Positions 50,142 to 60,171 of a stretch of DNA of 64,000 nucleotides are shown in pieces (the first letter of the stretch is position 1; each line of letters opens with the position of its first letter). A program made the translations under genes and the position numbers. Below the pieces are notes generated by a model. That model searched no databases. It was not told the DNA's origin and saw only the letters and a program-made list of their open reading frames with translations. Source of the stretch: Thalassobius sp. Cn5-15 (GTDB lineage: Bacteria; Pseudomonadota; Alphaproteobacteria; Rhodobacterales; Rhodobacteraceae); assembly GCF_022347685.1 (NCBI RefSeq), contig NZ_JAKRGF010000001.1, positions 1 through 64,000 of the forward strand, given 5' to 3'.

Positions 50142-50556
50142 GGGCCGATTCCTCGGGACAGCTGACAGACGGCATCACTAACCATGAAAGCACGGGTCCC
50201 ACCTAGTAGACGCAATGCCGCAGGTGCAAAGGTTGCCTTCTGTCGCGGCCTTCATCGTTCTCCAATATCTATCGTATTGCGCCCGTCAACATGGGGTCTC
50301 AACGTTAGCATGGACAAAGAGCGTATAGACGCTGACCAGAGCCCCAAGTTTCAAAATGCTCTTTATCCATGCGATTTCAGCAGTGCAGTCGTTCGTCTCG
50401 CGTGCGGCGAATGACAGCTTCGAGCCCAAAGTCTCAGATGCTGCGCAACGCTTGAATGTCTGGTTCTGACGCGAGCGGAGTATGTTGCGAACGGTGGTCT
50501 TATCTTTTCTTTACCAATTGTGAATAGAACCTGTCTCGCACGCACTCGGAGGTTCC
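50142..50556. other. 415-bp gap upstream of the MuF toxin
   Basis: No recognised gene. A 76-codon frame at 50184-50414 (plus) lacks a good ribosome-binding site and resembles nothing I know. The toxin promoter must be here. The DNA may be debris at the edge of the insert. Confidence 0.4.
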
Positions 50557-51480
50557 ATGCAACACAGTTTCAGTGATTTCCTCCAGCATGGTGGCGACAG
50601 CCAGTACAGAATAGCGCAGCGACATGGTCGTCTGGTTGGCTACCGCTTGGGATTGTCGCTCAAATCCACTTTCCCAGACTACTCCACTTTGCGGGCCGGT
50701 TTCAGCGAACGCCTCGATCAAGTGATTGCTGAAAACACCCTGATGCTGCTGAACGCGCTGACGCCGCCTGACTCAGTGCCAACTGTTTCGGCATCCGATT
50801 TGCGAGATGTGTCCGATGCAAAGACCGAAGCGCTCAACGCGTGGGACGCGCGGCTTGAGAGCATATTCAACGAATATCAAAACCACCCGCAACGGCTCAG
50901 ACCGCTTCGTGCGTCCATGGAAGAACGCCTTTTGCGCGCTTTTGCAGGACTGATTAATCAGCTTCGGCAGGAAGAACTTGGCATTGAGGGGTATATTTGG
51001 CGCTCGCAGGAAGATGCCAAGGTTCGCGATAGCCATGCAGAATATCACGATCAGATATTTCGTTGGGAGGATCCCCCGGCGGGCGGGCATCCCGGCGAAG
51101 CACATAACTGTAGGTGCTTTGCGGAACCGATTGCGCCAACACCTCAAAGCAACGTAGTTCTAGCCGACTTCGACGGCAGCGGTCCCCCACAAGACCTTTC
51201 AGTCCATGAAGCAGGTGGGGGCCACACCATAGGCCTGCATGTTGGAAAGAGCGAAGCCTTCCTAATCGGATCGGTTAGCACTCCACGAGGCAAAACGCTT
51301 TTCGTAAGCCAATATCGCTGGCGACATGGGACTTTCCCGTCACTTGAAGCAGCTGAAAAGCTAACGAACTCCAATCTTGCGAGAAACTTGGACGTTGTGA
51401 ACGAGGTCGCAAGTGGGCGATTGCGTAGAGCCTTCATAACAAGTGATTTTGGATCAATAACAGGCTTTGAGGCATATTGA
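50557..51480 (+). CDS. MuF-type polymorphic toxin with CdiA-CT RNase A-like domain
   Basis: This 307-residue protein has two recognisable parts. Residues 100-192 resemble the phage Mu F / SPP1 gp7 minor-head domain (RSQEDAKVRDSH, FRWEDPPAGGHPGEAHNCRC). Residues 214-307 resemble the bacterial CdiA-CT RNase A-like toxin domain (HEAGGGHTIGLHVGKSEAF near the start, TFPSLEAAEKLTN later), with His223, His228 and Lys231 as candidate catalytic residues. MuF toxins are normally encoded in prophages, but no other phage gene is nearby here. CGGAGG precedes the ATG. An immunity-like gene follows 127 bp downstream. RNase activity is inferred from the family. Confidence 0.75.
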   Translation: MQHSFSDFLQHGGDSQYRIAQRHGRLVGYRLGLSLKSTFPDYSTLRAGFSERLDQVIAENTLMLLNALTPPDSVPTVSASDLRDVSDAKTEALNAWDARLESIFNEYQNHPQRLRPLRASMEERLLRAFAGLINQLRQEELGIEGYIWRSQEDAKVRDSHAEYHDQIFRWEDPPAGGHPGEAHNCRCFAEPIAPTPQSNVVLADFDGSGPPQDLSVHEAGGGHTIGLHVGKSEAFLIGSVSTPRGKTLFVSQYRWRHGTFPSLEAAEKLTNSNLARNLDVVNEVASGRLRRAFITSDFGSITGFEAY

Positions 51481-51607
51481 ACGACTCAGCGTGCTTCATC
51501 CCCGATACGGCTCCGGCGGACATTTGGCGTGGGAACCGTTATTGAACACGCCCCGGACATGCCGCATGGGTTTATCATTATCACATCCTATCCAAGGATT
51601 GACTAAA

Positions 51608-51910
51608 ATGACGCCGCCGAAATCATTCTACGACTTCACTTTGCAGTTTCATCAAGACTTAGATGTCGTTCATCCTGCTTGGGCCGACACCCCCGACGGG
51701 CGCAACCAAATCTATGAAGACTTTCGACAAGGCTATGGCGATCAAGCCGTGCGGGAATTAGTCACGTACTGCGAAATACTCTTAGCGGACGACGAAACTG
51801 ATCTCGGTTCACTTTGGTTCAAAGAATCCAAGGCTGACTGGGTTATTCCAGACGAGGGCGTTCGTTTTCTCTTTCGAGACTTTTTGGGCTGGGCGGCTTC
51901 ACTATCTTAG
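51608..51910 (+). CDS. Probable immunity protein, CdiI-type
   Basis: This 100-residue acidic protein (SFYDFTLQFHQDLDVVHPAW, then DFRQGYGDQAVRELVTYCEIL in two parts) resembles immunity proteins of contact-dependent inhibition systems (CdiI_2-like family). It directly follows the MuF-type toxin on the same strand, as immunity genes do. The ATG at 51608 is chosen because AAGGA lies nine bases upstream; the longer frame lacks a signal. The identification rests on position and general resemblance and needs a profile search. Confidence 0.65.
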   Translation: MTPPKSFYDFTLQFHQDLDVVHPAWADTPDGRNQIYEDFRQGYGDQAVRELVTYCEILLADDETDLGSLWFKESKADWVIPDEGVRFLFRDFLGWAASLS

Positions 51911-52206
51911 GCCGCTTTTCGACGAAGAAATTCTCATAGCCGACATTGGGGCAAACGCAGCGAATTCACACTTTGCCCCGCGACTCGCCTCTTCATGCGG
52001 CATGCAGCGAAAGTCGTCTCATACCAGAGCGGCCCTTGGGACAAGTCGTGGCGAAGACATCAGGATAGCCTAGAGAGGACCTCTCGGAGTGTTGCTGCAG
52101 CGCATGCAGCACGAAATTGGACCTGTCCCGGAATTGTTCTGCTCCGTTGATTTGGCATTTTGCTAAAAGGTAGAAGTGGCATTGCGGATCCTCAGCCTAG
52201 AATTGT

Positions 52207-52242
52207 GCTCTCCAAGGAGTTCGTAATTTCTCCTAAGAGAGC
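52207..52242 (+). promoter_or_regulatory. Hairpin in the leader of the bipartite peptide gene
   Basis: GCTCTC-CA-AGGAG pairs with CTCCT-AA-GAGAGC around a 10-nt loop. It lies in the 405-bp gene-free stretch 51911-52315, which otherwise holds only short inverted repeats such as GAGAGGACCTCTC. Confidence 0.45.
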
Positions 52243-52268
52243 GCATTTCCACTTTTGATTGACTGAAA

Positions 52269-52298
52269 ACCAAACCGCCAAATGTTTGGTGTTTTTTT
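52269..52298 (+). terminator. Terminator-like hairpin just before the bipartite peptide gene
   Basis: ACCAAAC and GTTTGGT form a 7-bp stem with an 8-nt loop, followed by G and seven T residues. Its end lies only 5 bases before the AAGGAGA ribosome-binding site of the next gene. It may stop read-through from the toxin genes or act as an attenuator in the leader of that gene. Confidence 0.7.
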
Positions 52299-52315
52299 AA
52301 TCAAAGGAGACAGGG

Positions 52316-52732
52316 ATGTCTGGATACTCACAACAAGAATTGGATGAAATGGCGGCCGAATTTGCGGCGATGGACGCCGAATTTGCAGAGATGGGCCTTG
52401 AGGAAATGGACAGCGAGCTGTCTGAGGCCTTTGCTGAATTGGACACTGAGCTGGAAGCCGCAGGGCTTGGTTCTCTGGGATTTGAAGCTGGTTCGCTGTC
52501 TGAGCTGGCAGACAATGACTTTGACGAAGCTTTCATTGGTAAGTTCCTGCGGAACAAGGCAAAGAAGCTGATCGCGAACATTGTGCGTTTGGTGCGTCAG
52601 TACGGCGATTGCGCGAAATGTGTGCCCAAAGTGGTTGAAGCGGTCGCGTATTTCAAAACGAAACAATACGCCTCCGCCATTCGTGCGGCCTATGACGCCT
52701 ACCTTTGTATTCGGTCTTGCACACGCAACTAA
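52316..52732 (+). CDS. Bipartite acidic/cationic small protein, candidate peptide precursor
   Basis: This 138-residue protein is divided sharply by charge. Residues 1-75 contain 22 Asp/Glu and no Lys, Arg or His, with a helical, heptad-like pattern. From Lys76 onward it is cationic (about 14 Lys/Arg) and ends in two cysteine pairs, C99-x2-C102 and C131-x3-C135. This resembles an acidic leader that neutralises a basic core, as in some antimicrobial peptide precursors. A subtilisin-like protease gene lies two genes downstream and could be the processing enzyme. AAGGAGA precedes the ATG. I recognise no family; the precursor idea is inference. Confidence 0.65.
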   Translation: MSGYSQQELDEMAAEFAAMDAEFAEMGLEEMDSELSEAFAELDTELEAAGLGSLGFEAGSLSELADNDFDEAFIGKFLRNKAKKLIANIVRLVRQYGDCAKCVPKVVEAVAYFKTKQYASAIRAAYDAYLCIRSCTRN

Positions 52733-52743
52733 GCGCACTTTGC

Positions 52744-52771
52744 GCGGCGCCGCTCATGATTTAGGCGCCGC
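52744..52771 (+). promoter_or_regulatory. Intercistronic hairpin after the bipartite peptide gene
   Basis: GCGGCGCC and GGCGCCGC form a perfect 8-bp all-GC stem with a 12-nt loop in the 62-bp gap between the peptide gene and the next gene. No T run follows, so partial termination or 3'-end protection of the peptide mRNA is more likely than full termination. Confidence 0.65.
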
Positions 52772-52794
52772 CAACTTTGGTCCAGGAGGAATTT

Positions 52795-53070
52795 ATGAAC
52801 GGCTCATTGAACCGAACAGATCTCGAAGAAATCGATGCATTTTTTGAAGAGTTTTCTGGTGTGGGACCTGAGGCAGGTGAAGTCTCAATCGACACTTTGA
52901 TTGACCAGTTGGAAGCCAGCTTTGAAACCGTCGAAATCTTGACGGCAAGCCCCGACACACCCGCAGAGCAAAGCGATTTGAATGAACGGGTAGAGGCGCT
53001 GGCGCAACAGCTGGACGCCATTGCGACGGAACTTGCACAGATCCACCAACAGCTCAAAGCGGAGGGATAG
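52795..53070 (+). CDS. Small acidic coiled-coil protein, 91 aa
   Basis: This 91-residue acidic protein has a C-terminal heptad repeat (about residues 60-90: LNERVEALAQQLDAIATELA in part) typical of a coiled coil. AGGAGGA precedes the ATG at 52795. Its stop is one base before the protease start, so the two are surely co-expressed. It could be an intramolecular-type chaperone or inhibitor supplied separately to the protease. I recognise no family. Confidence 0.65.
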   Translation: MNGSLNRTDLEEIDAFFEEFSGVGPEAGEVSIDTLIDQLEASFETVEILTASPDTPAEQSDLNERVEALAQQLDAIATELAQIHQQLKAEG

Positions 53071-53071
53071 A

Positions 53072-54724
53072 ATGACAGAGGTCACATCAAAGTCTGCTGG
53101 CCCAGAAAAGAAAAAATACCTTATTGGCAAGCCAGACATCACACCGGCACATCTTGACGAGGTCGATCTGGAACGATTGAGCCTTGAAATTGCGCATCGT
53201 ACGCAAGCGGATTTCGGAACCGCGTCCCTTGAGGGGGGCGATGATCAAGGGCAATTCACGATGGAATTGTTGCGCGATCCTGAAACCAATACGCTTCATA
53301 CTCTCTCCGTGGAACTGACAGAGCAGCACGTTCACGAGTTGCAAGAGCGCCATCAATCTGCGTTGATTATTGAGCAAGACGAAGAGCTCTTCCTGCAAAC
53401 ACATTCTGGTTTGCAGGAAATGAGCCAGCATCCTGTTTTTGCGCCTGCGAACGCAAAGGAATTGAAGGTTTCGATCAAAGTCGTGGATCAATCCGGTGTC
53501 GCGGTACCGGGGGCGCGTGTCGACCTGATGGGAGAGGTCTGGTCTGATCAACAGGTGACCAATACCCAAGGTAACGTCACCCTGCGTCTGTTTGGCGAGA
53601 CCTTGGACAGCCTCGAAGAGTTGAGGATAAAACCAGCGATTGGGTTCTGGAGTAAGATCATCTTGGATCCCAATCTGGCACTTAAGGACAACATAGTCAC
53701 GCTGAGTGCTTTGCCAGCATCCTTAAATACACCTCAGTCGGAACTCTGGGGAAACAAAGCGGTTGGAAACGTTGCAATGCCCGCGGGTAATCGCATTCGT
53801 GTTGCGGTCATCGACAGTGGTTTTGCCGATGGGCATCCGGATGTTTCAGCGGCTGGCGGGCGCGGTTTTGCCGTTGATGGTAACCCTGACGAGGATTGGA
53901 AGCTTGATGACAGCGGCCACGGCACCCATGTCGCGGGGACTATCGGCGCTCTTAACAATGCTATTGGTATGCGCGGCGTGGCTGAGCCGGTCGATATTTT
54001 CCCACTGCGGGTGTTTCCAAAGGCAAGCTTTTCAAAACTGATTGCGGCCATTGATACCGCGATCGAACTGAATGTCGATGTGGTTAATATGTCTTTGGGG
54101 GGCACTAAGGAGTCTCAGCTTCTGCGTCAGCGCATGCAGGCGGCACGCAATGCAGGTATCCTACTGGTTGCTGCGGCCGGCAACAGTGGAGGGCCTGTCA
54201 TGTACCCTGCCGCTTATCCTGAAGTTATGGCTGTTGCGGCGATTGGCAAAGTTGGTAGTTTTCCTGCGGACAGCTTTCATAGTCGGCATGTGACGCCCCA
54301 CAAAAGTCAGGATGGCCAATACTTCTCTGCGGCCTTTACATGCTATGGTCCCGAAATTGATGTCTGTGGTCCAGGCGTGGCGATTATATCCACGCTGCCC
54401 GGTCCCGGCTTTGGCAGTTATGATGGAACATCAATGGCATCGCCGCACGTTGCAGGGGTTGCCGCGGCTCTTCTGTCACTGTCACCTGCCATTCAGGGCA
54501 TGGCGCGCAATGCCGCGCGCTCGCAAGCGCTGTTTGATGCGGTATTGAACCAATGTCAGTCTTTAGGATTACCGGCCGAGCGGCAAGGCAGTGGGCTACC
54601 CGTTCTTCGTGCAGCATCTACGCCACCACCCCCATCACCATCGGCGGATGAAAGCTGGGATGCGGTGTCCGACCTTATTCGACGGGCTCTGGAAGCGGCG
54701 CGGGCAATCAAAGAGAACGGGTAA
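53072..54724 (+). CDS. Subtilisin-like serine protease (S8) with N-terminal Ig-like domain
   Basis: This 550-residue protease has the full catalytic set: Asp248 (AVIDSGF), His283 (GHGTHVAGT), the oxyanion Asn in AAGNSGG and Ser454 (DGTSMASPHVAG). The first 120 residues are unrecognised, and an Ig-like/carboxypeptidase-regulatory-like fold follows at about 130-215 (KVVDQSGVAVPGARVDLMG). A Pro-rich linker and a helix close the C-terminus. No signal peptide is seen, so it is either cytosolic or exported by another route. GGAGGG precedes the ATG. Confidence 0.88.
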   Translation: MTEVTSKSAGPEKKKYLIGKPDITPAHLDEVDLERLSLEIAHRTQADFGTASLEGGDDQGQFTMELLRDPETNTLHTLSVELTEQHVHELQERHQSALIIEQDEELFLQTHSGLQEMSQHPVFAPANAKELKVSIKVVDQSGVAVPGARVDLMGEVWSDQQVTNTQGNVTLRLFGETLDSLEELRIKPAIGFWSKIILDPNLALKDNIVTLSALPASLNTPQSELWGNKAVGNVAMPAGNRIRVAVIDSGFADGHPDVSAAGGRGFAVDGNPDEDWKLDDSGHGTHVAGTIGALNNAIGMRGVAEPVDIFPLRVFPKASFSKLIAAIDTAIELNVDVVNMSLGGTKESQLLRQRMQAARNAGILLVAAAGNSGGPVMYPAAYPEVMAVAAIGKVGSFPADSFHSRHVTPHKSQDGQYFSAAFTCYGPEIDVCGPGVAIISTLPGPGFGSYDGTSMASPHVAGVAAALLSLSPAIQGMARNAARSQALFDAVLNQCQSLGLPAERQGSGLPVLRAASTPPPPSPSADESWDAVSDLIRRALEAARAIKENG

Positions 54725-54730
54725 AACGGA

Positions 54731-54762
54731 CTGCGATCAATCATCACAGAGGTTGATCGCAG
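54731..54762. terminator. Hairpin between the convergent protease and LuxR-type genes
   Basis: CTGCGATCAA and TTGATCGCAG form a perfect 10-bp stem with a 12-nt loop, 7 bases after the protease stop. The following bases (TTGATG) are only partly T-rich. Confidence 0.6.
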
Positions 54763-54834
54763 TTGATGTATGTATCGATGAAATAGCGTTGGGCACGTGC
54801 TTCTCCATAGATAACTGAAATATCAGCGTTTTCG

Positions 54835-55491
54835 TCACATATATAATTTCGGCTCTGTCCATCCTGTTTTTACAGCAGCAATGGCCAGAGCCGTTCTATT
54901 TTGAGCACCTGTTTTGCGCATGATGGATTTCAGATCTCCCTTCACTGTTGTCAGAGGGAGGTCTAGGCACATAGCAATTTGTTTGTTCTGCTGACCGGTC
55001 AACAGCTGTGACAGAACGTTTTGTTCTCGATAGGTCAGTTTCGAGCGCAGGGCTTCTGCGGTTGTCGTTGGAGCTTTTTGTTTTGTGAGTTTTTGCAACA
55101 TATCAACCGCATCATCCGGTAGGATGCGCTGACCTTGAGACGCCAGCATCAAATATTGTGTGACGGCTTCGATCGGTACGTTTGACGGCAAGCAGCCTAC
55201 ACAGCCTGTGCGAAAGGCGCGTTCCATAACATCCAAGTTAATCGACGGCAGGATCAGAAGAGATTTGAGCTTGGGCCTTTGATGATGCAGTTTTAGTAGC
55301 TCTGATACAAAACGATCATTCAACTCAGCCAGTTCAAAGACAGCCAGATCTAGTTGTTTTTCTGGGTGGCGCATTCGCAGCTCAGACACAGAGCAAGCAT
55401 GAACTTTCACTTCGATGTGTTCGAAGTCCATTGCCGCCATGAATGCATGTGTAAAAAATGTGTTTTGTGAAATCAGAGCAATTCTATGCAT
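54835..55491 (-). CDS. LuxR/NarL-type regulator with degenerate receiver
   Basis: This 218-residue protein has a receiver-like N-terminus and a LuxR-type helix-turn-helix (LTYREQNVLSQLLTGQQNKQ in part, LTTVKGDLKSIMRKTG). The receiver lacks the usual acidic pair near the N-terminus (LISQN), has Glu53 at the place of the phospho-Asp (DLAVFEL), and lacks the conserved Lys near SNVPIEA. It should therefore not be switched by ordinary phosphorylation. No sensor kinase is adjacent. It is divergent from the SARP-like gene and convergent with the protease gene, so it may control either. The 252-bp gap to the next gene holds no other frame I trust. Confidence 0.85.
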   Translation of the reverse strand: MHRIALISQNTFFTHAFMAAMDFEHIEVKVHACSVSELRMRHPEKQLDLAVFELAELNDRFVSELLKLHHQRPKLKSLLILPSINLDVMERAFRTGCVGCLPSNVPIEAVTQYLMLASQGQRILPDDAVDMLQKLTKQKAPTTTAEALRSKLTYREQNVLSQLLTGQQNKQIAMCLDLPLTTVKGDLKSIMRKTGAQNRTALAIAAVKTGWTEPKLYM

Positions 55492-55743
55492 TGTTTCCCA
55501 CCCAGTTGGTCAATGCTGTTTACCCGTGCCCTTGTTAGCCCAACGTCAGGTGGACAACAAAAAAACAATTCAAAAGAGTGTTTTTCCTGAATCGATTCGT
55601 GTTTCAGGGCGACCTTTTGAAACCCCCATTCAATGTGTCACCAGCCAATTTAACGCCGCTGTATCGAAATAATTAACGTTTCACTAACGGTGGCTGTTTC
55701 ATGATGATTCTGCATTTGAAAGGGGTAAGGTGTTCCAATTTTC

Positions 55744-57627
55744 ATGACTCAAGGTTTTGAATATAAAACATTTTCCTCAGCATGCAGAAACTCTCTCTAC
55801 TTCGAGGGCAGTGGTATAACAGCCAGTGGATCTGCATGCGTAGCACCTGTTCGTAAAACCAAGTCCTTTTCAAATGCACCTGTTCCCAAGCAAGATGCCA
55901 GTATGAGCACAACCGCTGCGAATAAGGCCAAGCTCTTTTTACTGGGCCCATTTGCGCTGCACGATGCAGCGGGCAAGAACTGCACGCCTAAAGGTAAAAA
56001 GGCTCAGGCGCTGATCGCGATGATTGCTCTGGCACCCCGACGTCAGAGAACGCGGGTTTGGCTGCGCGACAAACTCTGGAGCGAAAGTGACGAGCGCAAA
56101 TCAGCGACCAGCTTGCGTCAAGTTGTTTTTGAACTCAGACGTGATCTTGGCTGGGCCTTCGATGCCATTTTTGACTTAGACCGACATTCTATCAGCTTTA
56201 AGCCCGGAGCCGTTTGGATCGATTATGATGCGTTGCAAGCTGATTTACACCTCTTGGAGACTCTCAATATTTCTTCTGACACCGATCTTCTGGAAGGGAT
56301 TGATGTCAAAGATGAGGAATTTGAAGACTGGTTGTTGTTAGAGCGTCAGATCTGGCAAGAAAAATCAGAGTGCTATTTTTCCAGAGCCAGCGAGATCACT
56401 GAAATACCGCCGCAGAAGTCAGAGGTGTTTCGTCCGGCAGATGTATTGCCAGAGCCCCTGGCACGGTTTTCGATAGGTGTGCTGCCAAATATCGAACAGG
56501 GCTGCGACCAAACGACGGCCCACATTGCCGATTTCGTACTGGAAGGCATCGCGAAAAATGCAGCCGAATTGCATCGGATCGATCTGTATGACTTCCGGGA
56601 TATGCAAATCCCGTCTGAAAGTATTGTCGGCGGGAATGAGGCCGACTTTTTAATGCGGGTGCGTGTTTTACAAATCCGCGCATCTATAACGATCACTTTT
56701 TTTCTCTATCATGCCGATCGCATGTCTTTGGCTTGGAGCCAGTCGATTCAGGCAGACATTGAAGATGTGCTGAGTTTTGACAGCTATGTACTCGCCGGGT
56801 TTGTGTCTCAGAACGTGGACCGGATGTCCAAGACGTTAACAACCCATCGCCGTGTGATGCGGGATGCAGACGCAGCGCGTGATCTGACTGGTTATACTGC
56901 CCTCAACATGATGTTTCGTCTGGACGATGAGGCTTTGAATAATGCCGAGAAGCTGCTGATTAAACATCAAACGGGCGCTGATGAAGCCTTGTTTGCGGCG
57001 CTACAAACCTACGCCGCCTCTTTCAAGATCGGTGAAAACCTAGGGCATTTGGATTTAGCCACAGCGTCGGATACGGCGCAACTGGCACGCCATGCTTTGA
57101 ATCAAAATCCATTCAACGCGATCTCTCTGGCCTGTTTGGGGCACACAATGGGCTATGTGTTTCAAGATCATGCACTAGGCGCCGAGCTTCTAGAGCGTGC
57201 GCTGAACTTGAACCCAAATCAGGCTTTTGTTTGGGACCATTATGCGCTCAATAAGCTGTATTCCGGGGATTATGATGCAGCACATGATGCGGCCAAGCGG
57301 GCGGTCTATTTGGGCAGTTTCAGCCCGATGTGCTTTAGCTATGAAACCACATTGGCGATGACGTCTACGATGCTGGGGCAGCATGGGCCAGCGATCCAGT
57401 CTAGTCGGAGTGCACTCCTCAAGCAGCCACGATTTGGGGCGGCGCTGCGGTATTTGCTCGTGAGTCTGACTGCGACGGGGCAAGACGAGGCGGCTGAGGG
57501 AACGTATAAAGACATTTTGAAATTTGATGCGGCCTTTGCCGATGATGAGATCCGTAAAGCGCGGTTCCGTATCGCGGACCCGAAATTGGAAACTCAAATT
57601 CTAAATAAAATAAGCAACTTCAAATAA
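55744..57627 (+). CDS. SARP/BTAD-like transcriptional regulator with TPR domain
   Basis: This protein of 627 residues, or 574 if the ATG at 55903 is used, resembles AfsR/SARP-type regulators. A winged-helix DNA-binding domain begins at KLFLLGPFALHD (RTRVWLRDKLWSESDERKS within it), a BTAD-type helical domain follows, and TPR repeats fill the last 200 residues (HALNQNPFNAISLACLG; ALNLNPNQAFVWDHYAL). The first 53 residues up to 55903 are low in conserved features, so the later start is plausible. SARPs often activate adjacent biosynthetic clusters, though most come from actinobacteria. It probably drives the PAP2 and protease genes that follow. Confidence 0.75.
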   Translation: MTQGFEYKTFSSACRNSLYFEGSGITASGSACVAPVRKTKSFSNAPVPKQDASMSTTAANKAKLFLLGPFALHDAAGKNCTPKGKKAQALIAMIALAPRRQRTRVWLRDKLWSESDERKSATSLRQVVFELRRDLGWAFDAIFDLDRHSISFKPGAVWIDYDALQADLHLLETLNISSDTDLLEGIDVKDEEFEDWLLLERQIWQEKSECYFSRASEITEIPPQKSEVFRPADVLPEPLARFSIGVLPNIEQGCDQTTAHIADFVLEGIAKNAAELHRIDLYDFRDMQIPSESIVGGNEADFLMRVRVLQIRASITITFFLYHADRMSLAWSQSIQADIEDVLSFDSYVLAGFVSQNVDRMSKTLTTHRRVMRDADAARDLTGYTALNMMFRLDDEALNNAEKLLIKHQTGADEALFAALQTYAASFKIGENLGHLDLATASDTAQLARHALNQNPFNAISLACLGHTMGYVFQDHALGAELLERALNLNPNQAFVWDHYALNKLYSGDYDAAHDAAKRAVYLGSFSPMCFSYETTLAMTSTMLGQHGPAIQSSRSALLKQPRFGAALRYLLVSLTATGQDEAAEGTYKDILKFDAAFADDEIRKARFRIADPKLETQILNKISNFK

Positions 57628-57638
57628 TAGGACACAAT

Positions 57639-58526
57639 ATGATTGACCACGATATCCTTTCCAAACATCGATTTACGGTCACGTCCACTGGATTGGTTTT
57701 GGATGATGAGGCGGAAAACCCTGTTGCGGACCCTGCGGTGGGTGCTGCGGCTGGGTCGGCGCTTTCGTTGAATCGGAATAGAAACCGAAATCGGAATCGC
57801 AACAGGAACCGCAACCGCAACAGGAACCGAAATCGCAACAGGAACCGCAATAGAAACCGCAACCGGTCCTTGGATGTGGTCGCCAGCGGTGGAATGCTGG
57901 AACCCTGGCGGGAGCGCGAGAAATTATACGCTCTGCTTGCGGAATGGAACAACCTGCCGGTACCTTTACCACCATCCCCTGAACAGCTCAGGATTGAGGC
58001 AGTCGAATTGCTGCGCAAGCAAGTGTTGCTGCAAACAACAGATCAAAGCCGCCGCATTGATGAAATTTTTCGGGAAGCTGATATTGAGCTTTCGGGGTAT
58101 TTACGCCCTTTGGGCATTGAGTCTTTGGGTGGATACGAAGCTACGGAAAGTTTATTTTATCTGATCCTCGCGCTCACAGATGAGATCGGTTTGCGCTATA
58201 AAGCGCGCTACAATGTGTTGCGCCCAAATCAGGTAGAGCCACGGCTGAGACCTATTTTGGCCAACCCAGCACACCAATCTTATCCATCCAATCATGCGTT
58301 CCAATCATTTTCGATTGCCTTTTTGTTCTCGCGCATGCTTCCGGAACATCCGGGAAGCTCGGAACTGTTCAACAGCGCGCGACGCATTGCAGAGAACCGA
58401 GAATGGGCTGGATTGCATTATGCCTCTGATACTGAGGCGGGCTATCAACTGGCCCGGATGATTGCCCCTGTTTTGGAAAAAGTAATTAAAGATCAAATGC
58501 TTGCTGCTTTGGAGGAGTGGATTTAA
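57639..58526 (+). CDS. PAP2 / vanadium-haloperoxidase-fold enzyme with Asn-Arg repeats
   Basis: This 295-residue soluble protein has all three catalytic motifs of the PAP2/vanadium haloperoxidase superfamily: K188-x6-R195-P (KARYNVLRP), P216-S-N-H219 (YPSNHAF) and R254-x5-H260-x3-D264 (REWAGLHYASD). Either vanadate-dependent halide oxidation or phosphatase activity is possible. The absence of membrane helices favours the soluble haloperoxidase or acid phosphatase type over the lipid phosphatases. Residues 45-76 are sixteen Asn-Arg pairs. AATAGGA precedes the ATG, 11 bp after the SARP-like stop, and the stop overlaps the start of the next gene. Confidence 0.75.
   Translation: MIDHDILSKHRFTVTSTGLVLDDEAENPVADPAVGAAAGSALSLNRNRNRNRNRNRNRNRNRNRNRNRNRNRNRNRSLDVVASGGMLEPWREREKLYALLAEWNNLPVPLPPSPEQLRIEAVELLRKQVLLQTTDQSRRIDEIFREADIELSGYLRPLGIESLGGYEATESLFYLILALTDEIGLRYKARYNVLRPNQVEPRLRPILANPAHQSYPSNHAFQSFSIAFLFSRMLPEHPGSSELFNSARRIAENREWAGLHYASDTEAGYQLARMIAPVLEKVIKDQMLAALEEWI
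57771..57866 (+). repeat. Sixteen in-frame Asn-Arg dipeptide repeats
   Basis: Sixteen 6-nt units each encode Asn-Arg, but with mixed codons (AAT/AAC with CGG, CGC, CGA, AGA or AGG). The pattern is conserved in protein and not in DNA, which argues against a fresh slippage product. Confidence 0.95.
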
Positions 58527-59926
58527 TGAATACAATTTCTGCAAACCTAACCGGTAACGCGCTTTACCCAAACTACGATGCGCTTTGGCACCTCCATGCA
58601 ATGGGTATTCTTGATCAGGGCAACGAACCTAAAGGGTGGTCGCTCTCTAAGCCTCAGAAACCAACCCGCGTTGCGGTGATTGATACCTCTGCAGCGATTG
58701 AGCATCCTAATCTGCAAGAGGCTATCAACAAAGAATTATCGCTTGATTTGTTTTCAGCGCGTTTGGGGTCATTTCCGTATCGTGGTGAGGGCAAGACCCC
58801 GATCGATAATCTAGATCTAAATTGGTCAACGAATATAGCTGACGGCTTGCCGCGTACTGTTCGGCTTTTAGCCGAATTTGTTGATCGGCTCTCACATGGA
58901 TCCCCGGCGCATTTCTCCGGTGTACAGCCCTGCACGGATCCTGCGTTTTCAAATCATGGCACGAGTATCGCCGGACTGGTTGGTGCACGCGCGTGTATGG
59001 CAGAGCAAAAATTGCCAAATGGTTCAACGGCGCCTCTGCCATTGCCGTATTGCGGAGTCGATCCGATGTGCGAAATCGTTCAGATTTCCACGAACTTCGA
59101 TCCCGATCCGGAAAGCTTGCTGCTTGCTTTTCTCTATGCGGATTTGATCGACGCAGATGTGGTTCTGTTTCCTCGGAATATTGCCGATCCAACGCGTACC
59201 GTTCCAGAGCTTGGGGATGAACTTGTTTCAGGCGCGCCGCTTGGTGATGCAATACAACAGATTGCGCCACGGGCGGAGAAAGCCGAGCTTTGGTCTGAGC
59301 TTTCGGAGTTGATGGTCACCGTATCCCAGCATCGCCCCGTGGTCTGCGCCGCAGGGAATGCGAATGAAGACAATGCCATTTACCCAGCCAATCTGGCCAG
59401 TGAGCACAATGGGATTGTGTCCGTGGGTGCGTTGAATGCCAAGGGCGTGCGCTGCAGCTATTCTGTAAGCCGCAACGTAACGGTCCTGGCGCCAAGTGGC
59501 GATGCAGAAGTGTTTGACCGAACGCAGGTCCGGCTAGACGAACAGAACCCGAATTACGATCCGACTGGCGTGCCGACACCAAACGACAATCATCTGTATT
59601 CTAGCTTTGATTTGATCAGCACGGATGTACCGGGAAAAGCCGGGTATTCTGGCAGCCCCTTTGACAAGACGCCCACCGATGGCTCTCTGCGAGAGTTTGG
59701 TTCTTATTATTCGCGGTTTAGTGGGACCTCGGCGTCTTCTGCATTGGTTGCCGGTTTCCTTTCGTTGGCAAAATCGACCAATGCATTACAAGCAAAGAGT
59801 GGTATTGAGGCCAAGGCGTGGTTGCTTGCCAAGAGCGAGGAGATCACTGCGGATGGCGAAACGTTTTTGATGCCTGTTTGGTCGGGAGCGGCCGTTTTTC
59901 CAGATAGCTCAACTGAAGTATCTTAA
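58526..59926 (+). CDS. Second subtilisin-like serine protease (S8)
   Basis: This 466-residue protease has Asp53 (VAVIDTSAAIEHPNL), His144 (NHGTSIAGLVGA), the oxyanion Asn (VVCAAGN) and Ser402 (GTSASSALVAG). It differs from the first S8 protease of the insert, with long insertions between Asp and His, and lacks the Ig-like domain. No signal peptide is seen. GGAGGAG precedes the ATG, which overlaps the preceding stop (TAATG), so it is coupled to the PAP2-fold enzyme. A substrate among the peptides or regulators of the insert is possible. Confidence 0.87.
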   Translation: MNTISANLTGNALYPNYDALWHLHAMGILDQGNEPKGWSLSKPQKPTRVAVIDTSAAIEHPNLQEAINKELSLDLFSARLGSFPYRGEGKTPIDNLDLNWSTNIADGLPRTVRLLAEFVDRLSHGSPAHFSGVQPCTDPAFSNHGTSIAGLVGARACMAEQKLPNGSTAPLPLPYCGVDPMCEIVQISTNFDPDPESLLLAFLYADLIDADVVLFPRNIADPTRTVPELGDELVSGAPLGDAIQQIAPRAEKAELWSELSELMVTVSQHRPVVCAAGNANEDNAIYPANLASEHNGIVSVGALNAKGVRCSYSVSRNVTVLAPSGDAEVFDRTQVRLDEQNPNYDPTGVPTPNDNHLYSSFDLISTDVPGKAGYSGSPFDKTPTDGSLREFGSYYSRFSGTSASSALVAGFLSLAKSTNALQAKSGIEAKAWLLAKSEEITADGETFLMPVWSGAAVFPDSSTEVS

Positions 59927-60017
59927 TTGGAAAAGCGACGTTGTCTGATTATTTCATTGCCAAAGTGCAAGATGATGAAAGCATTTGAGAAGCTGGTTCG
60001 TTCTGGCGTGCATTGAA

Positions 60018-60031
60018 TGAGAACGTTCTCA
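60018..60031. promoter_or_regulatory. 14-bp perfect palindrome TGAGAACGTTCTCA
   Basis: The palindrome lies in the 245-bp gap between the second protease and hisA. Such a symmetric site could be an operator for a dimeric regulator. The known alphaproteobacterial LexA direct repeat (GTTC-N7-GTTC) is not present. The rest of the gap looks like non-coding debris. Confidence 0.35.
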
Positions 60032-60115
60032 GCAACTGGCTGGCTGGCATCATGCATGCCGCCAGCTTATCCACGACCTGCAAGGGGGCCTGATGGGCAA
60101 AGCCCTCCCTGAAGC

Positions 60116-60143
60116 AAAAACCGGCCCCCGAAGGCGCCGGTTT
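60116..60143 (-). terminator. Intrinsic terminator after hisA
   Basis: Read on the minus strand, AAACCGGC / GCCGGTTT forms a stem followed by T residues, 29 bp after the hisA stop. It means hisA transcripts do not run on into the insert and hisF. Confidence 0.8.
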
Positions 60144-60171
60144 GTCACATCTTCTTAGCCTTAGGCGGGTC

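Follow-up and report, generated by a model that had tools for sequence, protein, structure and literature searches.

A charge-split protein of Rhodobacteraceae encoded beside proteases of two unrelated folds, possibly a protease-activated precursor

The window, a stretch of 64,000 nucleotides (nt) from Thalassobius sp. Cn5-15 (contig NZ_JAKRGF010000001.1, positions 1 to 64,000), carries at 52316..54724 a gene for a 138-amino-acid (aa) protein that is purely acidic up to residue 75 and strongly basic beyond it, followed closely by genes for a 91-aa protein and a subtilisin-like protease. This raises the question of what such a protein does beside a protease, and whether the protease acts upon it. 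The original prediction had read it as a secreted or activated basic peptide, kept silent by its leader and processed by the protease, with the 91-aa protein as a small helper. The coordinates that it gave are exact, since the 138-aa open reading frame (ORF) starts with its ATG at 52316 and the protease stop codon ends at 54724. The features concerned are:
52316..52732, forward strand: 138-aa precursor-like protein, with leader 1-75 (charge -22) and core 76-138 (+11)
52316..52540, forward strand: acidic leader, residues 1-75, in which the stretch 58-70 is partly conserved
52541..52729, forward strand: cationic core, residues 76-138, with predicted helices 71-95, 100-114 and 118-137
52795..53070, forward strand: 91-aa acidic, coiled-coil-like protein (21 Asp/Glu against 3 Lys/Arg)
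53072..54724, forward strand: S8 protease #1, with catalytic motifs around D248, H283 and S454

The charge split is as originally described. Ahead of Lys76 there are 22 acidic residues (7 Asp and 15 Glu) and no Lys, Arg or His, while from Lys76 onward 8 Lys and 6 Arg stand against 3 acidic residues, and all four cysteines (99, 102, 131 and 135, with CxxC and CxxxC spacing) are in the cationic core. Among 4,303 open frames of 60-300 aa from 43 sources (the window and 42 fetched loci, rather than whole genomes), only 8 begin with at least 40 aa free of Lys and Arg, of which at least 10 are acidic, and go on to a tail of at least +7. All 8 belong to the family of the 138-aa protein and represent 7 distinct members, the one from Pseudooctadecabacter jejudonensis being counted twice. 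The split in this family is not due to chance. Across 15 pairs of six homologues the nonsynonymous rate (dN) is 0.007-0.28 and the synonymous rate (dS) runs from 0.49 to saturated; because dN is far below dS in both halves, the comparison indicates that the ORF is a real gene and that leader and core are both under purifying selection.

Six intact relatives were found in one scan of genome contigs, which with the protein of the window makes seven members; the scan uses short peptide patterns, and distant relatives can escape it. Five are close, in Loktanella sp. 5RATIMAR09, Tritonibacter mobilis NBRC101030, Phaeobacter sp. B1627, Phaeobacter sp. HF9A, and Sulfitobacter sp. CW3, and the most distant is that of P. 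jejudonensis (loci L026/L035), all genera that we take to belong to the marine Roseobacter group. The expectation that homologues would retain the charge split as their sequence varies holds in 7/7 members. The net leader charge is -21 to -23 throughout (-21 in P. jejudonensis), the first Lys or Arg is at residue 76 except in P. jejudonensis, where it is at 105, and there are 12-15 Glu before the charge switch and 0-2 after it. Between the window and P. jejudonensis, identity is 14/50 over leader residues 1-57, 6/13 over the stretch 58-70, and 30/61 over the core (77-138). The five close leaders are 62-71% identical to that of the window, so part of the agreement in charge is plain descent. 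Two further expectations stood in part. The four cysteines are all kept in six of the seven members, while P. jejudonensis has only the inner pair; and the stretch 58-70 before the switch is better conserved than the leader ahead of it (6/13 against 14/50), although no cleavage site can be fixed.

Beyond these members the searches returned little. An alignment of the family matched 3 of 394 family genomes; the single sequence matched 11 of them at E≤0.1, 8 of these at E≥0.01. A search with the core in 385 class genomes gave the window's own genome and two matches (E 0.008-0.009), which carry internal stop codons and were treated as noise. A viral origin was rejected, as three scans of viral contigs contained no relative and the best match in a phage collection had an E value of 0.8. 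Two plasmids of Tritonibacter mobilis carry a match to residues 1-68 only, in strain F1926 (L013 8001-8207), where a stop codon follows directly, and in strain A3R06 (L012 8001-8204), judged from the match alone. These copies might be taken for independent leader-only proteins, but they are read as remnants, the gene being intact in strain NBRC101030. There is no match to S8 protease #1 around either copy, the A3R06 stretch extending only about 2 kb downstream. By eye, the DNA after the F1926 stop codon resembles insertion-sequence debris.

The order of precursor, 91-aa protein and S8 protease, in close spacing, was correctly predicted, with the gene for the 91-aa protein starting 62 nt past the precursor stop codon and that for S8 protease #1 only 1 nt further on. 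The latter is a peptidase S8 (PF00082, 4.7e-44; 3.2e-44 against subtilisin BPN'), with IDSG at 247, HGT at 283, and GTSM at 452, a propeptide-like N-terminus by eye, and an Ig-like region that is below the Pfam cut-off. The predicted linkage of the homologues to a protease is found in 7/7 intact loci, and it is here that the locus is surprising. In six of these the adjoining enzyme is an S8 protease, whereas in P. jejudonensis the precursor is followed by a trypsin-fold (S1) protease instead (Pfam Trypsin, 6e-9), for which the best match among solved structures is the glutamyl endopeptidase 1p3c (E 1.2e-19). Subtilisin and the glutamyl-endopeptidase-like protease have unrelated folds, and they lie beside the same conserved charge-split partner. 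That the protease is adjacent in every intact locus, and is of two kinds, speaks for a substrate rather than an inhibitor of the protease, since a shared substrate tolerates a change of protease more easily than an inhibitor does. Glutamyl endopeptidases cut after Glu, and the P. jejudonensis precursor has Glu-Glu six residues ahead of its first Arg. In S8 protease #1 and its five relatives there is a Met at the place aligned by eye with subtilisin Gly166, but reasoning about the S1 pocket from this residue was set aside as too weak for naming a cut site. No charge-split ORF is present in the scanned stretches around distant S8 relatives in Rhizobium, Agrobacterium, Paracoccus, Variovorax, Streptomyces, and Skermanella, where small neighbours that by eye might be detached propeptides received no confirmation from Pfam in the three cases tested.

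The 91-aa protein fared less well. It is acidic, as had been claimed, but its coiled coil is suggested only by weak matches below cut-off (best E 7e-4). It is 43-49% identical across the other five S8-type loci and has no tblastn match in the P. jejudonensis locus, so that the design does not depend on this proposed helper.

The reading that we lean towards, by a little, is that the 138-aa protein is an inactive precursor, the cationic helical core of which is freed by the adjacent protease to act on an anionic target. The glutamate-rich leader (-21 to -23) would mask the core electrostatically; once the cluster is switched on, the protease, a subtilisin in the window and the glutamyl-endopeptidase-like enzyme in P. 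jejudonensis, would cut at or near the charge switch or degrade the leader. The freed core would then hit its target, most likely a membrane, either that of the producing cell, in a protease-triggered self-killing, or that of a neighbour after release. Action on a membrane is the weakest step.

The predicted structure speaks for this reading. In an AlphaFold2 model made from seven sequences, with an overall predicted local distance difference test (pLDDT) of 60.1 and a predicted template modelling score of 0.50, pLDDT is below 50 for residues 25-69, 63 for 71-80, and has block means of 71-83 for 81-138, where most of the helical core is placed. The segment 73-97 is amphipathic, with 44 of 2,000 shuffles scoring as high. 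The last two core helices may pack as a hairpin held by two cysteine pairs, of which one (102-131) is nested within the other (99-135): if the helices run antiparallel with a turn near 115-117, as the limits of the predicted helices indicate, residue 102 would face about 131 and 99 would face about 135. P. jejudonensis keeps only the cysteines aligned with 102 and 131 and lacks both 99 and 135, so that their joint loss would remove one predicted bond. The nested arrangement thus fits this one member.

The precursor, the 91-aa protein and S8 protease #1 belong to a cluster of seven genes, all of which are matched together by tblastn in the five close-relative strains. By eye, from ORF lists, the flanking genes differ between these loci, and the cluster is therefore conserved in unlike settings. 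The remaining genes, with a possible operator, are:
52229..52239, no strand assigned: TCTC-N2-AAGAG box, 87 nt ahead of the precursor ATG
54835..55491, reverse strand: LuxR-type regulator, kept in all six S8-type clusters
55744..57627, forward strand: SARP/BTAD-like regulator with a TPR region (BTAD below cut-off, E 0.054)
57639..58526, forward strand: PAP2-family enzyme, with 16 Asn-Arg repeats ahead of the domain
58517..59926, forward strand: S8 protease #2, with no N-terminal hydrophobic stretch (first four residues left out)

The name SARP is taken from the annotation of relatives. The PAP2 enzyme belongs to that superfamily by a narrow margin (PF01569, 27.9 bits against a cut-off of 27.2) and has no membrane segment by hydropathy. 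The motif forms of PAP2 are K-x6-RP, PS-x-H, and R-x5-H-x3-D, all three of which are carried by the PAP2 alignment A3, which aligns to an acid phosphatase structure at 1.1e-19. The five other S8-type loci carry the TCTC-N2-AAGAG pattern too, 92 nt ahead of the precursor gene, and it may be an operator. A looser form (spacing 1-3 nt, either strand) has five more sites elsewhere in those stretches, a count with no chance expectation computed. Nothing matching the box occurs between the LuxR and SARP genes, and an operator common to the precursor and SARP genes was accordingly rejected.

Secretion of the product, part of the original prediction, was not borne out. Hydropathy gives no N-terminal signal-like stretch in the seven cluster proteins or in the product of 50557-51480 (15-residue means reach 1.03 at best); over 19 residues the maximum, 1.79, lies inside the S8 protease #2 domain. 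A crude motif scan of six cluster loci found no ABC transporter, other exporters not being searched for; in the window it marked a single distant frame at about 17.3 kb. Intracellular activation is at least as likely as a secreted antimicrobial. Overall, the initial interpretation is supported in part: the charge split and the pairing with a protease survive, but secretion is unsupported.

Several observations weigh against an inactive precursor with a membrane-directed core. Conservation is higher in the core than in the leader (mean identity 0.84 against 0.77, 15 pairs of the six close members), unlike in fast-diversifying bacteriocins. The other six members have a core charge of +18 to +20, but that of the window reaches just +11. 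The leader helix (369 of 2,000 shuffles) and the segment 98-135 (608 of 2,000) are not unusually amphipathic, and the truncated Tritonibacter copy shows that the core is dispensable. Disulfides are unlikely in the cytoplasm, and a genuine difficulty arises from this, since the scans gave neither an export signal nor an ABC transporter. Inspection of the cluster ORF lists by eye brought up no immunity gene, and the second kind of protease, S1, is carried by one locus only.

Some of the same facts would suit a regulator released by proteolysis, in which the basic core binds a nucleic acid or a protein partner and controls the regulators of the cluster, the leader acting as a nucleic-acid mimic. 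LuxR and SARP-like regulators are both present in the cluster, the strong conservation of the core is like that of a domain with a fixed partner, and the hydropathy and motif scans that gave no export signal or ABC transporter agree with a protein that stays inside the cell. There is, however, no match to a DNA-binding family, and an amphipathic segment with cysteine pairs would be atypical of DNA binders; this explanation is rather unlikely.

A classical exported bacteriocin, or a ribosomally synthesized and post-translationally modified peptide (RiPP), would have a leader guiding an unlinked exporter or modifying enzyme, with the protease as leader peptidase. This overlaps the precursor reading, in which the protease also removes the leader, and the two are not exclusive. 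The layout of leader, core and protease speaks for it, as do two rhizobial plasmids on which a related set of SARP, PAP2 and S8 genes lies beside an HEXXH-annotated protein and a ThiF enzyme. In the clusters studied here, reading the ORF lists by eye brought up no modifying enzyme, no transporter and no immunity gene, the ABC scan of six loci was negative, and a core more conserved than its leader (0.84 against 0.77) is the reverse of the usual pattern of RiPPs and class II bacteriocins, where the leader is conserved and the core variable. We consider it unlikely.

A role for the 138-aa protein in inhibiting or chaperoning its neighbouring protease, rather than serving as its substrate, seems more doubtful still. 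Its gene is just upstream of the protease gene and is conserved along with it, and distant S8 relatives have small neighbours that by eye are propeptide-like, though Pfam gave no inhibitor family in the three tested. A single inhibitor family would be less likely to fit both the S8 enzymes of six loci and the S1 enzyme, of unrelated fold, in the seventh; S8 protease #1 also seems by eye to have a propeptide-like region of its own, and an I9-like inhibitor profile is not among the Pfam results, which contain no family for the 138-aa protein at E≤1. Finally, that the four cysteines bind Zn or Fe-S in a small cytoplasmic redox or metal protein matured by proteolysis is improbable, as P. jejudonensis keeps only two of them, despite the CxxC and CxxxC spacing, the apparently cytoplasmic setting, and the oxidative enzymes (heme peroxidase) that neighbour related gene sets elsewhere.

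By sequence searches the 138-aa protein has no significant match to a known family, although a layout of precursor and protease is already known. Like Pfam, NCBIfam and PADLOC gave no family at E≤1, and the best matches were 0.018 in PHROG and 0.36 among PDB profiles. With all seven members the best NCBIfam value was 0.0096 (one member), and with the seven cores the best Pfam value was 0.079 (one member). Foldseek against viral structures returned 77 matches, none significant (best E 1.9). A TPR-like reading of the core, suggested by eye from YxxAIxxAYxA, was dropped, there being no Pfam TPR match.

Known systems resemble parts of the precursor reading. Plant alpha-hairpinins have two helices braced by nested cysteine pairs (CxxxC...CxxxC). 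The proposed core is similar in its predicted helices 100-114 and 118-137, and in the joint absence of the first and fourth cysteines in one member, but differs in its CxxC...CxxxC spacing and additional N-terminal helix. QhpE is a subtilisin acting on a peptide precursor, and S8 protease #1 (P0003), likewise an S8 enzyme beside a possible peptide substrate, matches the QhpE-type model (NF049966) at 7.9e-28; its score of 97.3 is, however, far under the cut-off of 165, a type VII mycosin model is slightly better (2.8e-29), and no Qhp genes were recognised by eye in the cluster. In gasdermins, which form large pores, a short inhibitory peptide lies at the C-terminus. The bacterial ones are cytoplasmic effectors encoded beside a protease and activated by cutting; the mask proposed here is instead N-terminal and acidic, and the core small, cationic and helical. 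In hymenoptaecin and other animal antimicrobial peptides, removal of an acidic pro-region frees the active peptide (PMC2853521). Hymenoptaecin differs in being eukaryotic and glycine-rich and in having a signal peptide (PMC2853521). If the precursor reading is right, the 138-aa protein would be a bacterial intracellular analogue of such peptides, armed by whichever protease is present, and the natural difference in protease between loci offers a direct test of what selection keeps.

The protease position beside the precursor is not the only one to vary. In P. jejudonensis, divergent from the precursor/S1 pair, there are a SARP-like regulator (BTAD, 2.3e-7), a PAP2 protein (Pfam 0.0026, below cut-off; found by profile A3) and a papain-like protein, the last recognised via a relative at L097 (phmmer 1.6e-17) that is itself just below the Pfam cut-off for C1 (0.0016). 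In this locus, of which about 19 kb was covered, tblastn gave no match to the 91-aa protein, to LuxR or to either S8 enzyme; both protease positions of the window's cluster are thus held there by unrelated proteases. PAP2 relatives are present at E≤1e-20 in 41 of the 394 family genomes. Twenty of these regions were fetched (the 17 best after the window and B1627, and three weaker). In 16 of them PAP2 adjoins a relative of S8 protease #2 and in 3 a papain-like protein, a SARP-like gene being present every time; the last has a short PAP2 ORF, alone, near a contig end. The papain-like proteins are at L097 9140-10105, L098 9318-10253, L099 7543-8532, and, in P. jejudonensis, L026 12705-13667. Since this SARP-PAP2-protease module is also found without it, the precursor is an add-on to the module, seen in two arrangements.

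The PAP2 proteins carry a short peptide repeat ahead of the domain, with at least 4 perfect units in 29 of 32 fetched loci and in the window (16 x NR), a survey of 57639-58526, L025, L026, L030, L031, L033, L034, L044-L049, and L080-L099 with no background rate computed. The unit varies by lineage (NR, NK, NRD, NRG, SR, SK, NSF, GSF, NGGM, GGLN, DGAV, HGGT). Each array uses 2-11 different DNA units, and for this reason it seems to be the peptide repeat, not a DNA microsatellite, that is under retention.

The module also occurs in other company. It lies beside a heme peroxidase and a C1 peptidase on a Palleronia plasmid, and on plasmids of Rhizobium and Sinorhizobium directly upstream of a ThiF enzyme and a protein annotated as HEXXH peptide modification, which has no Pfam family. 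Heme peroxidase genes are found repeatedly close to the SARP-PAP2-S8 module (L094, L095, L044, and, weakly at 53 bits, L093). The rhizobial SARP-PAP2-S8 modules at L047 4548-12164, with a 73-aa ORF, and at L048 could belong to an uncharacterised RiPP cluster. Their HEXXH-annotated neighbour recalls the HEXXH-enzyme RiPP clusters (PMC12636437), whereas no such protein was recognised in the cluster of the window. The literature searched, mostly outside subscription journals, showed no description of the seven-gene cluster or of the SARP-PAP2-protease module.

Because both slots accept unrelated proteases (S8 or S1 by the precursor, S8 or papain-like C1 by PAP2), what is conserved may be cutting and not the enzyme. 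Tentatively, the whole could be an alphaproteobacterial self-killing system or inter-cell weapon, in which a SARP-PAP2-protease unit is joined to a protease-armed cationic hairpin and 'cut to activate' is the constant part; we regard this as possible, although the odds are against it. Should the precursor reading hold, the module, in Rhodobacteraceae and on rhizobial plasmids, would be a likely unexplored conflict or peptide-processing system.

The cluster of the window is within the following feature:
50234..60166, no strand assigned: stretch of about 9.9 kb between hisF and hisA (named by eye), with a G+C content of 0.512, the remainder of the window having 0.583

It is absent from one same-genus genome, where hisF and hisA are about 730 bp apart and only 66 bp are unaligned. 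From that pair alone insertion here is indistinguishable from loss there, but the lower G+C content and the differing flanks favour mobility. In Phaeobacter sp. HF9A an ORF that by eye is integrase-like (L033 17991-19217) is directly 3' of the cluster, in line with mobility. Also within the 9.9 kb stretch, the product of 50557-51480 has a phage Mu F-like/minor capsid domain (Pfam 2.3e-12) and a CdiA-CT RNase A-like tail (Pfam 8.4e-5, below cut-off), and the ORF that follows it, 51467-51910, could encode its immunity protein.

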